NCBI GenBank assembly: GCA_017411605.1
Contig: JAFQPR010000039.1
Location: 16,498-80,497, forward strand
Source: Clostridia bacterium
GTDB taxonomy: Bacteria; Bacillota; Clostridia; Oscillospirales; CAG-272
DNA: 64,000 nt
Reading direction: 5' to 3'
Under the pieces are notes generated by a model that was not told where the DNA came from, searched no databases, and worked only from the letters and a program-made list of their open reading frames with translations. This document shows positions 13,731 through 21,577 of this stretch, piece by piece; positions within the stretch are counted from its first letter, which is position 1, and every line of letters begins with the position of its first letter. The translations under genes were made by a program, and so were the position numbers.

Positions 13731-13778
13731 AGCTGAGATGATTCATCTAAGAACTTTTTAGGGTGCTGAATCTCAGCT
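13731..13778. terminator. Terminator shared by convergent genes
   Basis: AGCTGAGAT (13731-13739) pairs perfectly with ATCTCAGCT (13770-13778), followed by TAATTTTATTT on the plus strand. The right arm overlaps the last codons and stop of the minus-strand zinc-ribbon gene. Confidence 0.7.
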
Positions 13779-14411
13779 TAATTTTATTTCTTCGACCGTA
13801 ACGTATTCCTCTGCGGCAGAAGCCGAAGCGCAAGAGAAGAAATATGTAGCTTCGCATTCGGGGCAGAATACCTGAATACCTCCGGGAGCATAGCGAAGAT
13901 CGTAATTACCGCTATGGCAAGGGCAATCAATTCGGCCTTCTGCTTCAAGGTCTTTTACTACGAAACGTATAAGATCGTAAACCTGAGCATCAGGAAGCAC
14001 CTCGTCTTCATCCATATCCTCCGGCTGAAGCTCCTCGAGTGTTTCGACCTCCATATCCTTGATAAGCTTTTCGAGATCCTTCGTATTCTTTTCTACAGCA
14101 AGGTCTACCTTGTCCTTATCTCCGATAAAGATGACATCAAGATTTGAATATGGACACCCGCCAAGGAAAATATCCCTTTCAAAGAAAAGAGCAGGGGATA
14201 TAACAAAGTTGTGATTATCACGGCATAGCACGCAGGGGACTGATATTCTGATCTTTTTGTCACGGGTGGGTGTTATATCAAGAGCGGATTTTCCGCAGTC
14301 GCACTTGAGGCGAAGCATACTTGCACCAAGCGCAAATTCACTTACTAATCCAAAAATTACGGTGCCGCATTCAGGGCATCTATATGCAATATGGGCGTGT
14401 TTTGTTGCCAT
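13773..14411 (-). CDS. CpXC-like zinc-ribbon protein of unknown function
   Basis: A 212-residue cytoplasmic protein with several paired cysteines: CPECG near residue 13, CDCG near 38, VPCVLCRDNH near 60, CPCHSG near 163 and FCPECEATYFF near 182. This pattern indicates two zinc-binding modules separated by an acidic helical linker (KDLEKLIKDMEVETLEELQ and onward). Proteins of this layout occur widely in Clostridia without a known function. No enzyme motif is seen. It precedes the TIR-FtsK gene in the text but is transcribed after it: both are on the minus strand with 114 bases between them and no strong terminator. Confidence 0.65.
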   Translation of the reverse strand: MATKHAHIAYRCPECGTVIFGLVSEFALGASMLRLKCDCGKSALDITPTRDKKIRISVPCVLCRDNHNFVISPALFFERDIFLGGCPYSNLDVIFIGDKDKVDLAVEKNTKDLEKLIKDMEVETLEELQPEDMDEDEVLPDAQVYDLIRFVVKDLEAEGRIDCPCHSGNYDLRYAPGGIQVFCPECEATYFFSCASASAAEEYVTVEEIKLS

Positions 14412-14525: not shown

Positions 14526-16460
14526 TCAAACGTCTTCCTCGTAGCGTTTTAATATCCTTCTCCATTCCTCGTATCCAATGATGACCTCATATTGAGCGGA
14601 TCCGTTATTTTTAGTAATGATACGAAGCTTTTGCATAAAGTCCACAAAGAGCAATGCCTTACCGTATCCTATGTTTAATTTGCGTTGCAAGAAAGATAAG
14701 GTTATGTAGCCACGGTCTATTCCGAGGGTGACGGCTTCCTTGAATTTACTATTCTTTATGTAATACGCTAAGTCACCGTCTTCAGGTTCATCGTTTGCAT
14801 CTAAATCATCTTTTTCTTTAACTATTTCGAGAAGAATATTTTCGTCATAATTTGTTTCGCCCGAGGGGTTAAGTGAGCTGACAATTCGTTTTATATCGTC
14901 ACTTGAAGCATATGCGCCCTGAATCCGCTGAACACCTTTGCCCGGAGAAGAGAATAGCATATCTCCATTCCATAGCAAATGCTCAGCGCCGAAGCTACCG
15001 TCGAGAATTGCTCTCGTATCCATCGCAGTCGCGGTTCTGAAAGCGATCCTGCTTGGTATGTTAGCCTTTATAACTCCTGTGAGAATATCGGGTGAAAAGC
15101 GATTTGCAGAAAGAATAAGGTAAATACCTGCCGCTCTTGCCTTTTGAGTTATCGGAAGGATAAGGCTTTCCGTGGTAGGGCCGTCTGCCAACATAAGATC
15201 GATTAATTCATCGATGATAATAACTATTTTCGGAAGTGGTTTTGCTCCGTCATTTTCTTCGAGAATTCTTCTGTTATATACATCTAATCTGACGGTATTA
15301 TATTTTTCTAGGAGGGTGTATCTTCTTTCTATTTCCTTGACAGCCCACGAGAGAGAAGCGATAGCCAGCTTGGTGTCAGTAATTTTGGGAACAAGAAGAT
15401 GAGGAGCTCCCTCGAATTGAGCATAATCAGTGTTTTTGGGGTCAATGAGTATTAGTCTTACTTCTTCGGGTGTGGATTTGCAGATAATACTCATCATTAT
15501 CGAATTTATCAACGAGGTGCGGCCGCTACCTGTAGCGCCTCCTATGAGTAAGTGCGGCATTCTTTCGATGCTGTATATTATCGGAGAATTATTAATGTCA
15601 ACGCCGATTATGGCAGATGTAACATCTTCTGACGAAAGGAATTCCTCGCTCTTGAGTATATTGGTAAGCATAACTTTTTCGCGCGTCGTGAGAGCAATCT
15701 CGATACCTATGGCACTAAGTCCCGGTATTGGTGCTTCTATTCTGAACGAGGATGCCTTGCAAGCCAGTGCCAAGTCGTTTGAAAGGTTAGTTATTTTGAT
15801 GACGGGAATCCCCTTTTCGGGTACTATGTGATAACGAACTAAACTCGATCCAACATCAACATTCCTTATTGTGGCTCTTACTTTAAATGAAGCAAGTGTT
15901 TTAATCAGCAGTTCACCTTTTTCCGTAACTTCCTGCTTTATTATTTCATTTGGAAACTCTTTTTGTGTAATGAGCTTAGCAAAGTCAGCGAGTGCGGAAC
16001 TTTCGCTATCTTCAACGGCTTTGGTTGTAGGCGTTTTTCTTTCCTTCTGCGGCTTTGGTTGACCGGTATGCGCAATAATACTTTTAAGTATCTTTTTCAT
16101 CTGCTCGTTGTTTCCATCGATTTTTTGAACGGCAACTACTTGATCTGTGCATAAATATATTTCAAATTCATCGTTAAGAACAATATCCTCGAGCTGAATA
16201 GGGAAAAGCGGTTTTTTATAGCATATAGCTCTTTCCACTTCCTTGCTTACCCAAACCGAGTTTTGAGAAGCGTTAGTTAAAAGCAGAATAAAGCATGAGC
16301 ATTCTTTTATTGCTTTGTTAATTACGTTAGCATACTTACTTCCAACGGGAATATCGTACGGAGCCATCCATGAATCTATTCTGTTCTTTTTCAACAGATC
16401 GCGCAAGGAATCGGCTGCCGCTTGATTTTTTGTGCTGTAGCTTATAAATGCATATCCCAT
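14526..16460 (-). CDS. TIR domain fused to FtsK-type motor and gamma domain, with altered Walker A
   Basis: A 644-residue fusion. Residues 1-130 form a TIR domain (GYAFISYSTKNQ, WMAPYDIPVG, SVWVSKEVERAI). Glu74 in SKEVERA aligns with the NADase glutamate of TIR enzymes such as SARM1, and Trp70 is also kept. Residues about 165-530 are colinear with the motor of the nearby ftsK, including RIEAPIPG, LIDPKN and TGVIKANIPSRIAF. However, Walker A reads GGATGSGRTS (Arg314 for the P-loop Lys), and the usual GTQRPS is SANRFS. Walker B IDEL (Asp417, Glu418) is intact. Residues about 565-640 match the DNA-binding gamma winged helix. The membrane helices and long linker of FtsK are missing, so it should be cytosolic. 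It probably arose by duplication of the adjacent ftsK. Function unknown. Confidence 0.88.
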   Translation of the reverse strand: MGYAFISYSTKNQAAADSLRDLLKKNRIDSWMAPYDIPVGSKYANVINKAIKECSCFILLLTNASQNSVWVSKEVERAICYKKPLFPIQLEDIVLNDEFEIYLCTDQVVAVQKIDGNNEQMKKILKSIIAHTGQPKPQKERKTPTTKAVEDSESSALADFAKLITQKEFPNEIIKQEVTEKGELLIKTLASFKVRATIRNVDVGSSLVRYHIVPEKGIPVIKITNLSNDLALACKASSFRIEAPIPGLSAIGIEIALTTREKVMLTNILKSEEFLSSEDVTSAIIGVDINNSPIIYSIERMPHLLIGGATGSGRTSLINSIMMSIICKSTPEEVRLILIDPKNTDYAQFEGAPHLLVPKITDTKLAIASLSWAVKEIERRYTLLEKYNTVRLDVYNRRILEENDGAKPLPKIVIIIDELIDLMLADGPTTESLILPITQKARAAGIYLILSANRFSPDILTGVIKANIPSRIAFRTATAMDTRAILDGSFGAEHLLWNGDMLFSSPGKGVQRIQGAYASSDDIKRIVSSLNPSGETNYDENILLEIVKEKDDLDANDEPEDGDLAYYIKNSKFKEAVTLGIDRGYITLSFLQRKLNIGYGKALLFVDFMQKLRIITKNNGSAQYEVIIGYEEWRRILKRYEEDV

Positions 16461-16500: not shown

Positions 16501-16998
16501 TTATTTTAAAAGGCGCTCAAGCTCAAGAGCGAATGCGTATGCCGCGGGCATTCCCGATGCGGTAGTTATGTTTCCATCGGTAACTACGTCAGCTTTTGTG
16601 ATGATAGCGCCCTTAAGCTCTCCCTCAAAGCCGGGAAAGCAGGTTGCTTTTTTACCTTCAAGAAGACCGCGTCGTCCAAGTACCAGAGGAGCTGCGCATA
16701 TAGCGGCGAGCCTGCCTTCATTTTCAAGCACGGCTGATATCATTTTATCCGAAAAATCGGACGCATCAAGGTTAGTGGCTCCCGGCATACCACCGGGGAA
16801 GATTACGGCGCTGTAATCCGATGGGTTAACCTCTTCTTTTGTGCTGTCAGCAATAACTTTAATGCCGTGAGCTCCGATAACCTCGCGGTTTTTTATAGCG
16901 ATCATATCTATTTCTATATTTGCACGTCTGAGAATATCCACGGGGGAGAGAGCTTCAAGCTCTTCAAAACCGTCTGCTAAGAGTAATGCAACCTTCAT
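16501..16998 (-). CDS. DJ-1/PfpI family protein
   Basis: A 165-residue single-domain member of the DJ-1/ThiJ/PfpI superfamily. The expected features are ADGFEELEA near residue 9 for the acidic partner, VIFPGGMPG near 65, and the nucleophile elbow AAICAAP with Cys101. Family members have been described as glyoxalases, deglycases, chaperones or peptidases; the precise activity here cannot be read. The gene lies between ftsK (75 bases upstream, with a terminator between) and the TIR-FtsK gene (40 bases downstream), so it is probably co-transcribed with the latter. Confidence 0.88.
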   Translation of the reverse strand: MKVALLLADGFEELEALSPVDILRRANIEIDMIAIKNREVIGAHGIKVIADSTKEEVNPSDYSAVIFPGGMPGATNLDASDFSDKMISAVLENEGRLAAICAAPLVLGRRGLLEGKKATCFPGFEGELKGAIITKADVVTDGNITTASGMPAAYAFALELERLLK

Positions 16999-17032: not shown

Positions 17033-17064
17033 GGCGGGATAACTGCGAAACAGTATATCCCGCC
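17033..17064 (-). terminator. Intrinsic terminator of ftsK
   Basis: On the minus strand GGCGGGATA (17064-17056) pairs perfectly with TATCCCGCC (17041-17033), followed by AATTTTT. Confidence 0.85.
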
Positions 17065-17073
17065 GTAAAACTT

Positions 17074-20000
17074 TTAGTCGTCAAGTCTGCGATTCAGCAT
17101 TTCACGCCATTCTTCCATTGTCATCTTGACCTCACGAGCCTTGGCTCCGTTTTTCTCGCCAACGATGCCTTGTTCTTCCATGATATCGATGTATTGAGCG
17201 GCTTTGCCGTAACCTATCTTAAGCTTTCTTTGAAGGAATGACGTAGCAACGCTTCCGTTTCTTATAGCAAGCTCAACGGCATTGAGGAATTTTTGATCCT
17301 GAAGGAAGCCCATTCCGGCGTTGTCTTCATCATAATCATCATCCATGCTATCGCCTGACTTGCTCTTATCGCATTTTTGCGCAGCGCGTCGCATATCTTC
17401 AAGAGCCTGTTCGTCGTAATGAGCATCCTTAAACTGAGCCTTAATGAAATCAACGATGTTCTCGGTTTCTGTTTCGGAAACAAATGCGCCCTGAACACGT
17501 TTAGGAGCTTTACCCGACGGAGCAAAGAGCATATCACCTTTACCGATGAGCTTTTCCGCGCCTGTTTGTTCAAGAATTGTACGGGAGTCAATGCCCGAGG
17601 ATACCTTGCAGGCTATACGCGAAGGAATATTTGCCTTGATAACACCCGTGATAACGTCTACCGAAGGACGCTGAGTACCGATAACCAGGTGAATACCCGC
17701 AGCTCTTGCCTTTTGAGCAATAAGCATTATAAGGTTTTCAACAGGATCTCTTACCTGTACCATAAGATCGTTAAGCTCGTCAATAAAAATAATTATTTTG
17801 GACATGGGGGCGCCGAGCTCTGGATTTTCGGAAACCTTTTTGTTATAGGAGTCGATGCTTTTAACGCAGAGCTTTTCAATGATTTCATATCTTTTGTTCA
17901 TTTCATCAACCGCCCACATAAGCGCACCTGCGGCTTGCTTAGGCTCGGTTACGACGGGAACGAGAAGATGAGGAATACCATTATAAGGCGCAAATTCAAC
18001 CTTCTTCGGGTCGATCATTATAAATTTGACTTCATCGGGACGTGCCTTATATAGCATACTTGTAATAAGTGAGTTGATACATACCGATTTACCCATACCG
18101 GTAGCACCCGCAATAAGAACGTGAGGCATAGAGCCTATATCTCCGTAAACAAGAGATCCTTCTACGCTTTTACCGATACAAACGCAGGTTTTCGAGGTTT
18201 CGCTCTGGAATTCATCAGCCTCAAGAAGATCACGAAGCGATACAAGAGACGGAACTTTATTTGGAACTTCAACACCTACTGCGCTCTTGCCGGGGATGGG
18301 AGCTTCTATTCTTATAGACTCAGCCGCGAGCGCGAGCGCGATATCATCGGCAAGCTTTTCAATCTGATTTACTCTTACGCCCTTTGCCGGAACTATAGAA
18401 TATCTCGTAATTCTCGGACCGTGCTCCATGCCACGTATCGTAGCCTTGATATTGAAGGAATCAAGAGTATTGATAAGCTGCTCACCGCCGTACTGTATTT
18501 CCTTGTTTATGCTATCCCAATCTTCTTCCTCACTCTTCTTAAGAAGCTCAAGGGGAGGGAATTTATAATTGGAATAATCGGGAAGAGCGGGCTTTTTCTT
18601 TTCTTCTTTTTTAGGCTGAGGTATGATGGGCTCTTCATATTCTTCCTCTGTGTAATCATCAAAAGGAGGAGTGTCGTCTTCATCCTCGGCTTCTTCGCTT
18701 TCTTCTCCGTAAGCACTCTCGACGGATATCGGTTTGAGTTCATCTTCATCAGCAACAGATTCATTCTCAATTTCCTCGGTTTTGGTGCTATCCACGTTTC
18801 TGAAAACGTCAAACATCTGTCTTTGAGCATAGATCTCGGGATTCCTTTCGTCCTCGGGAATCTCCTTTTTTTCCACGATCTCTTCCGGCTCAAGCTCGTC
18901 CTCGGAGAATTCTTCCTCTTCAATATCCTCATCGTCTTCATCATAGGTGAATTCCAATCCGGATTTTCTTAAGTCGGAAGACGCGTCAAGTGTGGAATCA
19001 AGCATGGTGCGCGATACCTCGAGCGTTGCTTCATCCGAAGGTGTAGCATCTACGAGATCATCTTCGTCACCGGAATCGTATTTTTCATCAAAATTAAACT
19101 CGGTTGAGGTCGTAGGTTTGATATCGGCATCAATATAATCGGTTTCCTCAAACTCGATTCCCGTACCGAATTTTGATACAGACTCCTGAATATGCTCAGG
19201 ATCCGCTTTCCGCATTTCTTTGTCAGGGATGGCAACACTAATTGTTTCTCCGGTTGTTTCAGAAGCTTCAGCGACGTATTTCTGCACCGATGGAATCTCA
19301 CGTGCCATATCTGCGGATGGAGCATCGTGAATATCGCCTGTGCTGTATGTGGGAGCAGGCGAAACGTATGCGGTATCTGCGACGGTTGAGCGGGCGGATT
19401 CAGTATGTGCTTTAGGTGCAGTATATTCAGGTGCTGTCGGTGTAGTATGAACAGGCGCGACAGGGATCGTATAAGCGGGTGCTGACGGAGCGGTGTGCGT
19501 AGGCGCGACCGGAGTAGCAGAAGGAACAGATGCTGCGGGCGCAGAGTAAGAAGAAGTTGCGGGCGCAGGATTTGTTTCTTTATCTGTATACGGTAAGACT
19601 GTCGGCGTAGAGTATGACGGAGCAACGGAAGCCGCAGCTCGGCTGCTTTCCGGAGATATTCTTACCTCCGAGGCTGTTTCTCCGGAAGAATATGCCCGTC
19701 TTGGCTCAGGCGCGGTAGCGCCGACAAAACGATATTTGTCGCTTACGGAAGGTCTGACAATCGAGCCATAGGTAGACTCATAATCGCTTACTATCGAAGC
19801 AACACTGTGACGCTTTTCCTCGGATACCGGAGCAGATGAGCCCGTTGCGGTATGGGTCGCTGGAGCAGTTTCCGTTTTATCCGCAGAAGGGGATACACCG
19901 CTTACAAGACTTGCAAGACGAGCTTGCTCTCTCGCACGTTCCTCTTCGGCTTGCTTTGCCGAATCAATTGCGGGTGCCGTGCTTTCCGCCGCGGGGGTAG

Positions 20001-21414
20001 AAACAGTTTCTTTGATGGCAGATTCTGCTTTTGCCTCACGCTCTGCTACAATACGCGCATTTTCTTTTTCAATGGAAGCTTTGACAAGCGCGGCTTCTTC
20101 AGCTTCTCTGGCGGCGCGTCTTTCAATAGCGGCTCTGCGATTTCTTTCAAATTCTTCGAGTCTTCTTTTTTGCTCTGCCTGCTCGGGTGTCAGTTCCGAA
20201 ATAAACTCGGAGAAGCCCTTGCTCTCTTTAGGCATTTCTTTTACCTTGCTCGAAGGTTTGTTTGCTCTTTTTTCATTCATAGCAAGGTCAAAAGGATCGA
20301 AGGATGATGTAAATATTGCATCGGCACTGTCGTCAATTCCGAAGTCAGCAGCAGTCTTTGCTTCTTCTTTTGAAACGGAAGGTACGTCATCGGACTCGTC
20401 CGCCGATGTTGGGGCTTTTACCTCTTCATAAACAATATCATCGCTTCGGAATCCTTCGGAAGGTGTTTCCGTTCTGACGAAGATTGGGTCCGCTTCAATT
20501 TCAATATCTGTAAAGCGCTTTTTATCCTCGGTAGCTTCGTCGATAACAGATTCCTCTGCAACGGTATCGTCTTCTTTGATTACCGTTTCTCTTAAAAATG
20601 GCGAGCCTGCCGTGCCCGTTTTGGTTTCAAGAATACCGAGCTCCGGAATCTCGAGTCTTGAAACGCCGTTATCGGCATTAAAATATTCGTCATTATAAAA
20701 ATCTGCGTTTTTCTTATCATCAACAGCCCTCTGTCTGACAAGCTTTTCTTCGCGTTTTGTTTTTTTCTTCTCTTGCTTCCTTTCTTCAATGTCAGCAAAA
20801 TAGTTGGCTATCTTCGCGATTTTTCTTAAGAAGAATCTCGAAATGCCCGATCCGCTGCCGGAGGAAAGATATAAGATATACAGCGCAACAGCCAAAGCTA
20901 TTACAATGAGAAGTCCTACTTTTCCGATTATCTTCGCAAGAGCAAATGCAAAAACGCTGCCTATAAATCCGCCGCCGACAGAGTTTTTGCCATTATTATA
21001 ATAGTCTTTTACGTTGAATACGAGTTCGGAAGAAATATTCGGTATAATGTAAGCCAGCATTGAAAGCATAACGAGCGCGATAAAAGAAAATATTACTTTT
21101 ATTCCGAGCTTATGCTCTTTGATATCCGAATAGAAGAATATAGCGTGAAAAACAATAAAAGCGGGAATGGTATAAGCCATGTATGAGAATAGTCCCATCA
21201 GAAGATTTGAAATAAATCTGCCAAATGCTCCCGTTTCCGCAGTTATAAAACAGAGAGTAAGGAACAGCGCTGCCGCTATCATAATAACGGGAATCGCGCG
21301 GACGAAGCCTTTTATTTCAACCGGCTCCTTCTTCTTGGTTCTTCTTTCTATTGCTCTGCGTTTTAATCTATCTATAAAAGTGTCTTTTTTAACTTTATCT
21401 TTTTTGTCAGTCAA
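17074..21414 (-). CDS. ftsK: DNA translocase FtsK/SpoIIIE
   Basis: Septum-anchored hexameric motor that pumps chromosome termini during division or sporulation. I place the start at TTG 21414 because GGAGG (21427-21423) lies 8 bases upstream. An in-frame GTG at 21450 has no Shine-Dalgarno sequence. The resulting 1446 residues hold about four membrane helices in the first 190 residues. A very long acidic and Ala/Pro/Thr-rich linker (about 220-930) follows, then the motor with intact Walker A GATGMGKS (Lys1109) and FIDELNDLM, and the gamma winged helix with SFLQRKLKIGYGKA. The linker makes it far longer than many FtsK proteins (often 750-900). A truncated paralogue with a TIR domain lies two genes downstream. 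Confidence 0.95.
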   Translation of the reverse strand: MTDKKDKVKKDTFIDRLKRRAIERRTKKKEPVEIKGFVRAIPVIMIAAALFLTLCFITAETGAFGRFISNLLMGLFSYMAYTIPAFIVFHAIFFYSDIKEHKLGIKVIFSFIALVMLSMLAYIIPNISSELVFNVKDYYNNGKNSVGGGFIGSVFAFALAKIIGKVGLLIVIALAVALYILYLSSGSGSGISRFFLRKIAKIANYFADIEERKQEKKKTKREEKLVRQRAVDDKKNADFYNDEYFNADNGVSRLEIPELGILETKTGTAGSPFLRETVIKEDDTVAEESVIDEATEDKKRFTDIEIEADPIFVRTETPSEGFRSDDIVYEEVKAPTSADESDDVPSVSKEEAKTAADFGIDDSADAIFTSSFDPFDLAMNEKRANKPSSKVKEMPKESKGFSEFISELTPEQAEQKRRLEEFERNRRAAIERRAAREAEEAALVKASIEKENARIVAEREAKAESAIKETVSTPAAESTAPAIDSAKQAEEERAREQARLASLVSGVSPSADKTETAPATHTATGSSAPVSEEKRHSVASIVSDYESTYGSIVRPSVSDKYRFVGATAPEPRRAYSSGETASEVRISPESSRAAASVAPSYSTPTVLPYTDKETNPAPATSSYSAPAASVPSATPVAPTHTAPSAPAYTIPVAPVHTTPTAPEYTAPKAHTESARSTVADTAYVSPAPTYSTGDIHDAPSADMAREIPSVQKYVAEASETTGETISVAIPDKEMRKADPEHIQESVSKFGTGIEFEETDYIDADIKPTTSTEFNFDEKYDSGDEDDLVDATPSDEATLEVSRTMLDSTLDASSDLRKSGLEFTYDEDDEDIEEEEFSEDELEPEEIVEKKEIPEDERNPEIYAQRQMFDVFRNVDSTKTEEIENESVADEDELKPISVESAYGEESEEAEDEDDTPPFDDYTEEEYEEPIIPQPKKEEKKKPALPDYSNYKFPPLELLKKSEEEDWDSINKEIQYGGEQLINTLDSFNIKATIRGMEHGPRITRYSIVPAKGVRVNQIEKLADDIALALAAESIRIEAPIPGKSAVGVEVPNKVPSLVSLRDLLEADEFQSETSKTCVCIGKSVEGSLVYGDIGSMPHVLIAGATGMGKSVCINSLITSMLYKARPDEVKFIMIDPKKVEFAPYNGIPHLLVPVVTEPKQAAGALMWAVDEMNKRYEIIEKLCVKSIDSYNKKVSENPELGAPMSKIIIFIDELNDLMVQVRDPVENLIMLIAQKARAAGIHLVIGTQRPSVDVITGVIKANIPSRIACKVSSGIDSRTILEQTGAEKLIGKGDMLFAPSGKAPKRVQGAFVSETETENIVDFIKAQFKDAHYDEQALEDMRRAAQKCDKSKSGDSMDDDYDEDNAGMGFLQDQKFLNAVELAIRNGSVATSFLQRKLKIGYGKAAQYIDIMEEQGIVGEKNGAKAREVKMTMEEWREMLNRRLDD

Positions 21415-21577
21415 TTTTTTATCCTCCGTAGAAATTGCAAAAAATACCACATTTTAATCTATATATTTTATAATACCAAATTTTAAAATAAAATACAAGT
21501 ATTTACGCGAAAAATTAAAAAATAAAAATTAAAAAATATTTTTATTATGGGAAAATAATGAAAACAGTTAAATTTGC

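Follow-up and report, generated by a model that had tools for sequence, protein, structure and literature searches.

TIR domains are widespread immune effectors that often destroy NAD+, and the trigger of most of them is unknown. A role of the WxxxE motif is described in the available part of PMC11374754, according to which the NADase activity of bacterial TIR domains depends on the glutamate. Members of the FtsK family form a hexameric ring on DNA and are oriented by the gamma domain (PMC4744071, in the excerpt at hand). In the Sir2-HerA system of S. aureus, the HerA ring opens the NADase pocket, as stated in the accessible text of PMC12198126. DndH and allied systems have captured HerA/FtsK motors, including a cellular FtsK with its alpha domain, according to the portion of PMC10853773 that was available.

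In the window, that is, the whole stretch of 64,000 nucleotides analysed in this study, a TIR domain and an FtsK part are fused in one frame, as the first-pass annotation had claimed. The gene at 14526..16460 (minus strand, as are all window coordinates below) is an intact ATG-to-stop frame of 644 codons, and four Pfam domains of its 644-residue product score above their curated cut-offs. The TIR domain (residues 1-135; 16056..16460) is matched by TIR_2 at residues 5-93 with 63.6 bits against a cut-off of 28 (E 3e-17), and ThsB_TIR is also above its cut-off (28.3 versus 21.2 bits). This Pfam match rules out that the N-terminus is something other than a TIR domain, and the annotation of the first 130 or so residues as a TIR domain stands. 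There follow FtsK_alpha (PF17854; residues 170-255; 15696..15953) with 71.3 bits against 22.9, the FtsK motor or beta domain (FtsK_SpoIIIE, PF01580; residues 265-456; 15093..15668) with 144.2 bits against 24, and the DNA-reading FtsK_gamma (PF09397; residues 571-628; 14577..14750), whose reported retention was borne out by 42.1 bits against 30.6. The residues singled out in the annotation are all in place: Glu74 (16239..16241), at the position of the C-helix glutamate of TIR NADases, makes a WxxxE motif with Trp70 (16251..16253); the Walker A motif GGATGSGRTS (15513..15542) has Arg314 where a lysine is expected, as found in all 66 canonical FtsK sequences compared; and the Walker B pair Asp417-Glu418 (15207..15212) is intact in the alignment to canonical FtsK. 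The membrane part is replaced, as had been proposed. FtsK_4TM is present in the resident ftsK and has no Pfam match in the TIR-FtsK protein, in which no 19-residue window exceeds a hydrophobicity of 1.6, indicating no membrane segment. Among the related proteins, one such window was found in P0004 and five in P0007, at residues 289 and about 439, all within the motors. Judged by its domains, the window protein is a soluble FtsK paralogue with a TIR domain in place of the septum-anchoring membrane part.

The gene order on the minus strand is ftsK, a hairpin, a DJ-1/PfpI gene, the TIR-FtsK gene, and a gene for a 212-aa protein. The canonical ftsK (17074..21450; 1458 aa) encodes 4TM, alpha, motor, and gamma parts, as detected with Pfam. 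It is followed by a hairpin with a T run (17033..17064; -22.1 kcal/mol, z -4.6), a likely terminator that is absent from the output of a consensus terminator scan. The DJ-1/PfpI gene (16501..16998; 165 aa; PF01965) lies upstream of the TIR-FtsK gene with a gap of 40 nt, and an AGGAAGG sequence precedes the TIR-FtsK ATG. Since the hairpin and T run come after ftsK, the DJ-1/PfpI and TIR-FtsK genes probably form a transcription unit of their own. The 212-aa protein (13773..14411), which borders the variable spot, is cysteine-rich and zinc-ribbon-like by eye and has no Pfam match. Farther out, cysS on the opposite strand lies before ftsK, and an amidase gene on the opposite strand and a PP-loop ATPase gene lie after the 212-aa gene. 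The genes around it are of the housekeeping kind, and no ThsA partner gene was found among the seven neighbours scanned with Pfam.

Is the fusion found in related genomes? A TIR-FtsK gene was detected in 4 of 69 genomes of the window genus, many of which are incomplete: the window genome, G059, G074, and G020. In G059 and G074, the gene lies at the same spot as in the window, after ftsK and the DJ-1/PfpI gene. Because two other genomes have the same gene order, an assembly error, which the first-pass annotation had named as a possible refutation, is excluded, and so is chance. The G059 protein has 663 aa, and the G074 protein (L086, 5569-8715) has 1,049 aa, in which a TIR domain is joined to two motors, both accompanied by alpha parts, and to a single gamma domain; the sequences used for them (P0002 and P0003, respectively) are each one residue short at the C-terminus. 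The G020 protein is a contig-edge fragment of 584 aa with the second half of the TIR domain followed by alpha, motor, and gamma parts. It is encoded on a contig other than that of the G020 ftsK, whose own spot holds a fusion of DJ-1 with gamma. The near kin G063, G065, and G029 are without a TIR-FtsK. A search of genome contigs gave no match for P0001 and only the G059 contig itself for P0002.

Besides the window, 62 ftsK loci of the genus were fetched. Both flanks, the DJ-1 gene and the 212-aa gene, are present in 59 of them; L066, L067, and L093 were dropped for a missing flank. In these 59 loci and the window, the spot holds a TIR-FtsK gene in 3 cases and no FtsK-derived part in 48. In five loci (L033, L054, L055, L074, and L088), DJ-1 is fused in frame to alpha, motor, and gamma parts; in one (L063), its partner is a degenerate motor that lacks gamma; and in three (L042, L052, and L057), it is fused to gamma alone. 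These nine DJ-1 fusions lie directly downstream of ftsK, and their DJ-1_PfpI and FtsK parts are all above the Pfam cut-offs. Since either TIR or DJ-1/PfpI is found on FtsK copies at one spot, the head domain of the FtsK copy is exchangeable. No description of a DJ-1/PfpI-FtsK fusion was found in the literature searched. Other cargo was noticed between the DJ-1 gene and the 212-aa gene in L036, L037, L042, L057-L060, L062, and L065, and it was named by eye as CPBP-type membrane, GNAT-like, and 5-formyl-THF cyclo-ligase-like proteins.

TIR-FtsK proteins also exist in two other genera of the family, with the architectures TIR-FtsK-TIR, TIR-gamma-FtsK-TIR, and TIR-FtsK. A profile built on TIR and alpha was run against the family (395 genomes, with 374 belonging to other genera), and G592 of genus g27 was the spanning match besides the window among the matches listed. 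The G592 protein (L120, 4989-7487) is a TIR-FtsK-TIR of 832 aa. A search of 12 chosen genomes added G613 (genus g27; L142, 408-3086), whose protein of 892 aa is a TIR-gamma-motor-gamma-TIR with the extra gamma domain between the first TIR domain and alpha, and G614, with a TIR-FtsK of 598 aa. Both genomes are also among the 395, in which they were unseen as spanning matches. Thus, the total of seven proteins in three genera is a lower bound, and there are at least seven. A profile of the same kind gave no further spanning match among the matches listed for 391 genomes of the class, and none at E 1e-34 or better for 398 genomes of the phylum; the family, class, and phylum searches score the best 6 candidates per genome, and the order search scores the best 3, among the matches listed. 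When 60 further loci (50 fetched for TIR matches and 10 for canonical FtsK) were searched with tblastn, FtsK was found in those ten only. All seven TIR-FtsK frames are open, with that of G020 cut by the contig edge, and gamma is above the Pfam cut-off in six of the seven proteins and below it in P0006. In the stretches of 8-12 kb fetched around the three TIR-FtsK genes of g27 and g34, neither a DJ-1 gene nor another FtsK gene was found. A CobB-like sirtuin gene (by eye; L143, 4768-5544) lies upstream of the G614 gene and is probably ordinary.

An origin of the fusion from a phage or a plasmid was considered and, on the matches listed, rejected. Coverage of 80% of the query is reached by none of 221 phage records and by 6 of 692 plasmid records, and TIR is absent from the matches listed (30 of the 221 phage and 30 of the 692 plasmid matches), all of which start at residue 104 or later. 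Two TIR-domain scans and one DNA-pattern scan of viral contigs found no relative.

Residues 1-133 of the window protein are 59% identical to a TIR domain fused to LRR_5 in another genus, and TIR-LRR_5 genes adjoin the TIR-FtsK genes of G592 and G613. Thus, the TIR domain is a shuffled module, with FtsK as one of its partners. In a first look, G592 and G613 showed 21-30 TIR candidates per genome, with several TIR genes clustered and some of them carrying LRR_5. The NADase glutamate is present in all nine TIR domains of the TIR-FtsK proteins, and the 47 control TIR stretches, some of them taken from overlapping loci, all have it as well; its retention is therefore weak evidence for catalysis in TIR-FtsK. 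The WxxxE tryptophan is found in the window TIR alone among the nine, and 42 of the 47 controls have an asparagine there. The structure model of the whole protein is too poor to use (pLDDT 55.6, and below 50 over most of the TIR domain). For the G059 TIR domain, a model with pLDDT 60.9 matches the TIR domains of SARM1, SPARTA, AbTir, and ThsB, and the nucleotide N-glycosidases DNPH1 and MilB are tied with these matches. The best PDB sequence match of the window TIR is Cat1 (E 0.011), in which Trp70 and Glu74 align to a tryptophan and a glutamate.

The state of the motors was assessed with 66 columns that are nearly invariant in 77 canonical FtsK sequences used as the reference. In the window genus, the TIR-proximal motors keep 43-50 of these columns, with 50 kept and 16 changed in the window protein. 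The second G074 motor keeps 54, the G614 motor 45, and the two g27 motors 61 and 55, and the five full-length DJ-1-FtsK proteins keep 58-62; the degenerate motor of L063 keeps 21 of 61. As for the key residues, the Walker A lysine and the Walker B aspartate and glutamate do not vary among the 66 canonical FtsK sequences compared. The window has the change from lysine to arginine, G059 and the first G074 motor have a Walker B change from glutamate to aspartate, and G020 has Walker A glycine to aspartate and Walker B aspartate to asparagine. Walker A and B are intact in the second G074 motor, and the key residues are intact in the g27 and G614 motors. Of the DJ-1 fusions, L088 has a Walker B change from aspartate to glutamate, and L063 has an arginine aligned in the Walker A lysine column.

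The P-loop change emphasized in the first-pass annotation is thus real in the window, but it is not family-wide, and the damage to the motors is general. None of the six other TIR-FtsK proteins has an equivalent of Arg314. Among the four TIR-proximal motors of the genus, 5 changes in key columns were observed against 4.5 expected at random, and the chance that all four have a key-column change is 0.30. A shared ATP-clamp role of Arg314 was therefore rejected: since Arg314 is not shared by the other TIR-FtsK proteins and catalytic columns are changed no more than expected, the pattern argues for a relaxed demand on translocation in the window genus rather than for a specific, designed ATP-lock. 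Arg314 may also affect assembly. The K70R variant of B. subtilis RecA loses its ATPase and mostly stays dimeric (PMC9769622, in its available part), which suggests that Arg314 could impair ring formation and does not settle the stability of the ring.

Where did the motors come from? The resident ftsK product and residues 135-643 of the window protein are 43% identical, and derivation of the motor by duplication from ftsK, as annotated, is upheld to that extent. The window motor does not seem to have been copied recently from the ftsK of its own genome, however. In the motor trees, proposed in the annotation as a check against the ftsK at 17074, the window motor lies on a long branch and, with those of G059 and the first G074 motor, groups with the DJ-1-FtsK paralogues of one half of the genus. 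The trees thus give no support to a recent tandem duplicate of the resident gene. The G020 motor falls within the other half of the genus, near its own ftsK, with 57% identity to the canonical sequences there, and the two g27 motors fall with the FtsK of g27 itself. The placement of the G614 motor is unreliable owing to a very long branch, and G614 was left out of the grouping test. Holding G020 and g27 together was rejected (p 0.002), holding the window, G059, G074, and g27 together was borderline (p 0.076), and a single origin of the four TIR-FtsK proteins of the window genus was not rejected (p 0.37); the groups were named after the tree had been seen, and long branches are in play. A single origin of all TIR-FtsK proteins was rejected on the first of these results. 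Because the joining of G020 with g27 is rejected, the trees support a minimum of two independent captures of the motor.

What may be the function of the window protein? Tentatively, and by analogy, I favor a DNA-clustered TIR switch, to which I give somewhat less than an even chance. In the manner of FtsK, the alpha/motor/gamma part would come together in a ring on double-stranded DNA, and the ring would gather six TIR domains. Once clustered, the TIR domains would cleave NAD+ or else produce an ADP-ribose signal, and a cell in which the state of the DNA is abnormal, for instance through invasion by foreign DNA or failed segregation, would stop growing. Since translocation is probably weakened or lost in the window genus, the ring may serve there as a DNA-bound scaffold rather than as a pump. 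The two-TIR and two-gamma architectures, which keep the TIR-plus-FtsK theme, support the switch. It is also favored by the four domains in one frame, the recurrence of the fusion at the spot and through separate captures, the retained TIR glutamate, the lack of a membrane segment, the exchange of heads, and the analogy to Sir2-HerA. Its rarity (the 4 of 69 genomes noted above, many incomplete) counts against it, and so do the housekeeping neighbours, the possible harm of Arg314 to ring assembly, and the general relaxation of the motors, which also fits drift. The open frames (that of G020 up to its contig edge), the independent recurrence of the fusion, the short gap after DJ-1 with a purine-rich sequence 5' of the ATG in three genomes, and the 55 and 61 of 66 motor columns kept by the g27 members all speak against a decaying ftsK duplicate that gained a TIR domain by chance and has no selected function. 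I consider such decay improbable, despite the long branch of the window motor, its 16 changed columns of 66, in which catalytic columns are hit as often as others, the near kin without TIR-FtsK, and the decay or loss of the motor in the DJ-1 fusions L063, L042, L052, and L057. It also seems quite unlikely that the TIR domain is only a scaffold, whose TIR-TIR contacts assemble or localise the FtsK ring without catalysis. TIR domains can serve as scaffolds, as the available part of PMC8494770 states, and a glutamate that is conserved in control TIRs too need not mean catalysis; against this, the glutamate is kept in all nine domains although the window and G059 TIR domains share only 20% identity, and the window TIR has the full WxxxE.

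The housekeeping character of the surrounding genes, and the position of three of the seven TIR-FtsK genes two places from ftsK, speak against an immune role and would suit a segregation checkpoint just as well. The same two facts favor a role outside immunity, as a partner that regulates the FtsK of the same cell: its weakened subunits would enter FtsK rings, cap them, or vie with FtsK for its DNA sites, and the head, whether TIR or DJ-1, would adjust division or metabolism upon failed segregation. Identity of 43% with the resident FtsK and the retention of both alpha and gamma also favor such a partner, as does the occurrence of DJ-1-FtsK proteins with near-intact motors (58-62 of 66 columns) at the spot. 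I nevertheless regard it as unlikely. There is no DJ-1 and no second FtsK in the three 8-12 kb stretches of g27 and g34, the G020 copy is on a contig different from that of its ftsK, and with 43% identity, mixed rings are not assured. Returning to the DNA-clustered TIR switch, it may be part of a broader pattern, which is possible but rather doubtful: the family would repeatedly copy its own segregation motor and turn the copy into a ring scaffold on DNA, to which interchangeable enzymes are attached as heads (DJ-1/PfpI, or TIR at one end and in some cases at both). This would yield a new class of NADase switch that senses the state of DNA, for immunity or as a segregation checkpoint.

If this is true, the host segregation machine, and not only mobile HerA-type ATPases, has been repeatedly recruited into effector-like proteins. 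The joining of a TIR domain to a motor with a well-understood ligand, double-stranded DNA read by gamma, offers a concrete candidate for a trigger, and the DJ-1/PfpI heads are an unexplained parallel to the TIR heads. The statement in the annotation that no protein of this architecture has been described agrees with the literature searched, which covered few subscription papers. FtsK is not in the main text of the TIR survey PMC7075850 or in that of PMC9092222, which deals with TIR NADases of the gut. Fusions of an effector to a sensor are known, and so is the capture of FtsK, each on its own; as far as seen, their combination and the swapping of heads are apparently new.

The window protein is clearly homologous to the FtsK/SpoIIIE translocases, with alpha, motor, and gamma in the same order. 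It differs from them in that the 4TM part and the long linker are missing, a TIR domain stands there instead, and the Walker A lysine is an arginine. In Thoeris ThsB, SPARTA TIR-APAZ, Cat1 CARF-TIR, and TIR-LRR, a TIR domain is likewise linked to a sensing part or switched on by one. None of Thoeris, SPARTA, and Cat1 is known to have an FtsK motor, and TIR-LRR, unlike the window protein, is without one by Pfam. The DJ-1/PfpI-FtsK fusions share the spot, a paralogous FtsK part, and an exchangeable enzyme-like N-terminal domain; their head is DJ-1/PfpI, and their motors, in the full-length fusions, are nearer to intact than that of the window protein (58-62 versus 50 of 66 columns). DndH/SspH is the nearest precedent for conflict proteins capturing a cellular FtsK motor with alpha, as far as the source excerpt goes. 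The SspH models have about 1,560-1,770 positions, and the window protein matches only 1471-1764 of 1766 and 1232-1558 of 1561; a full-length DndH/SspH match beyond the motor was not found in it. No TIR domain on the FtsK protein of these systems is mentioned in the available part of PMC10853773. In the Sir2-HerA and HerA-DUF4297 anti-phage complexes, an effector enzyme is carried by a hexameric ring whose subunits belong to the FtsK/HerA superfamily, as proposed here. Sir2-HerA consists of two proteins, the HerA ATPase and Sir2, whereas the window protein is one polypeptide with a TIR domain and with the alpha and gamma parts of FtsK. Among working systems, Sir2-HerA offers the closest analogy to the mechanism suggested here.
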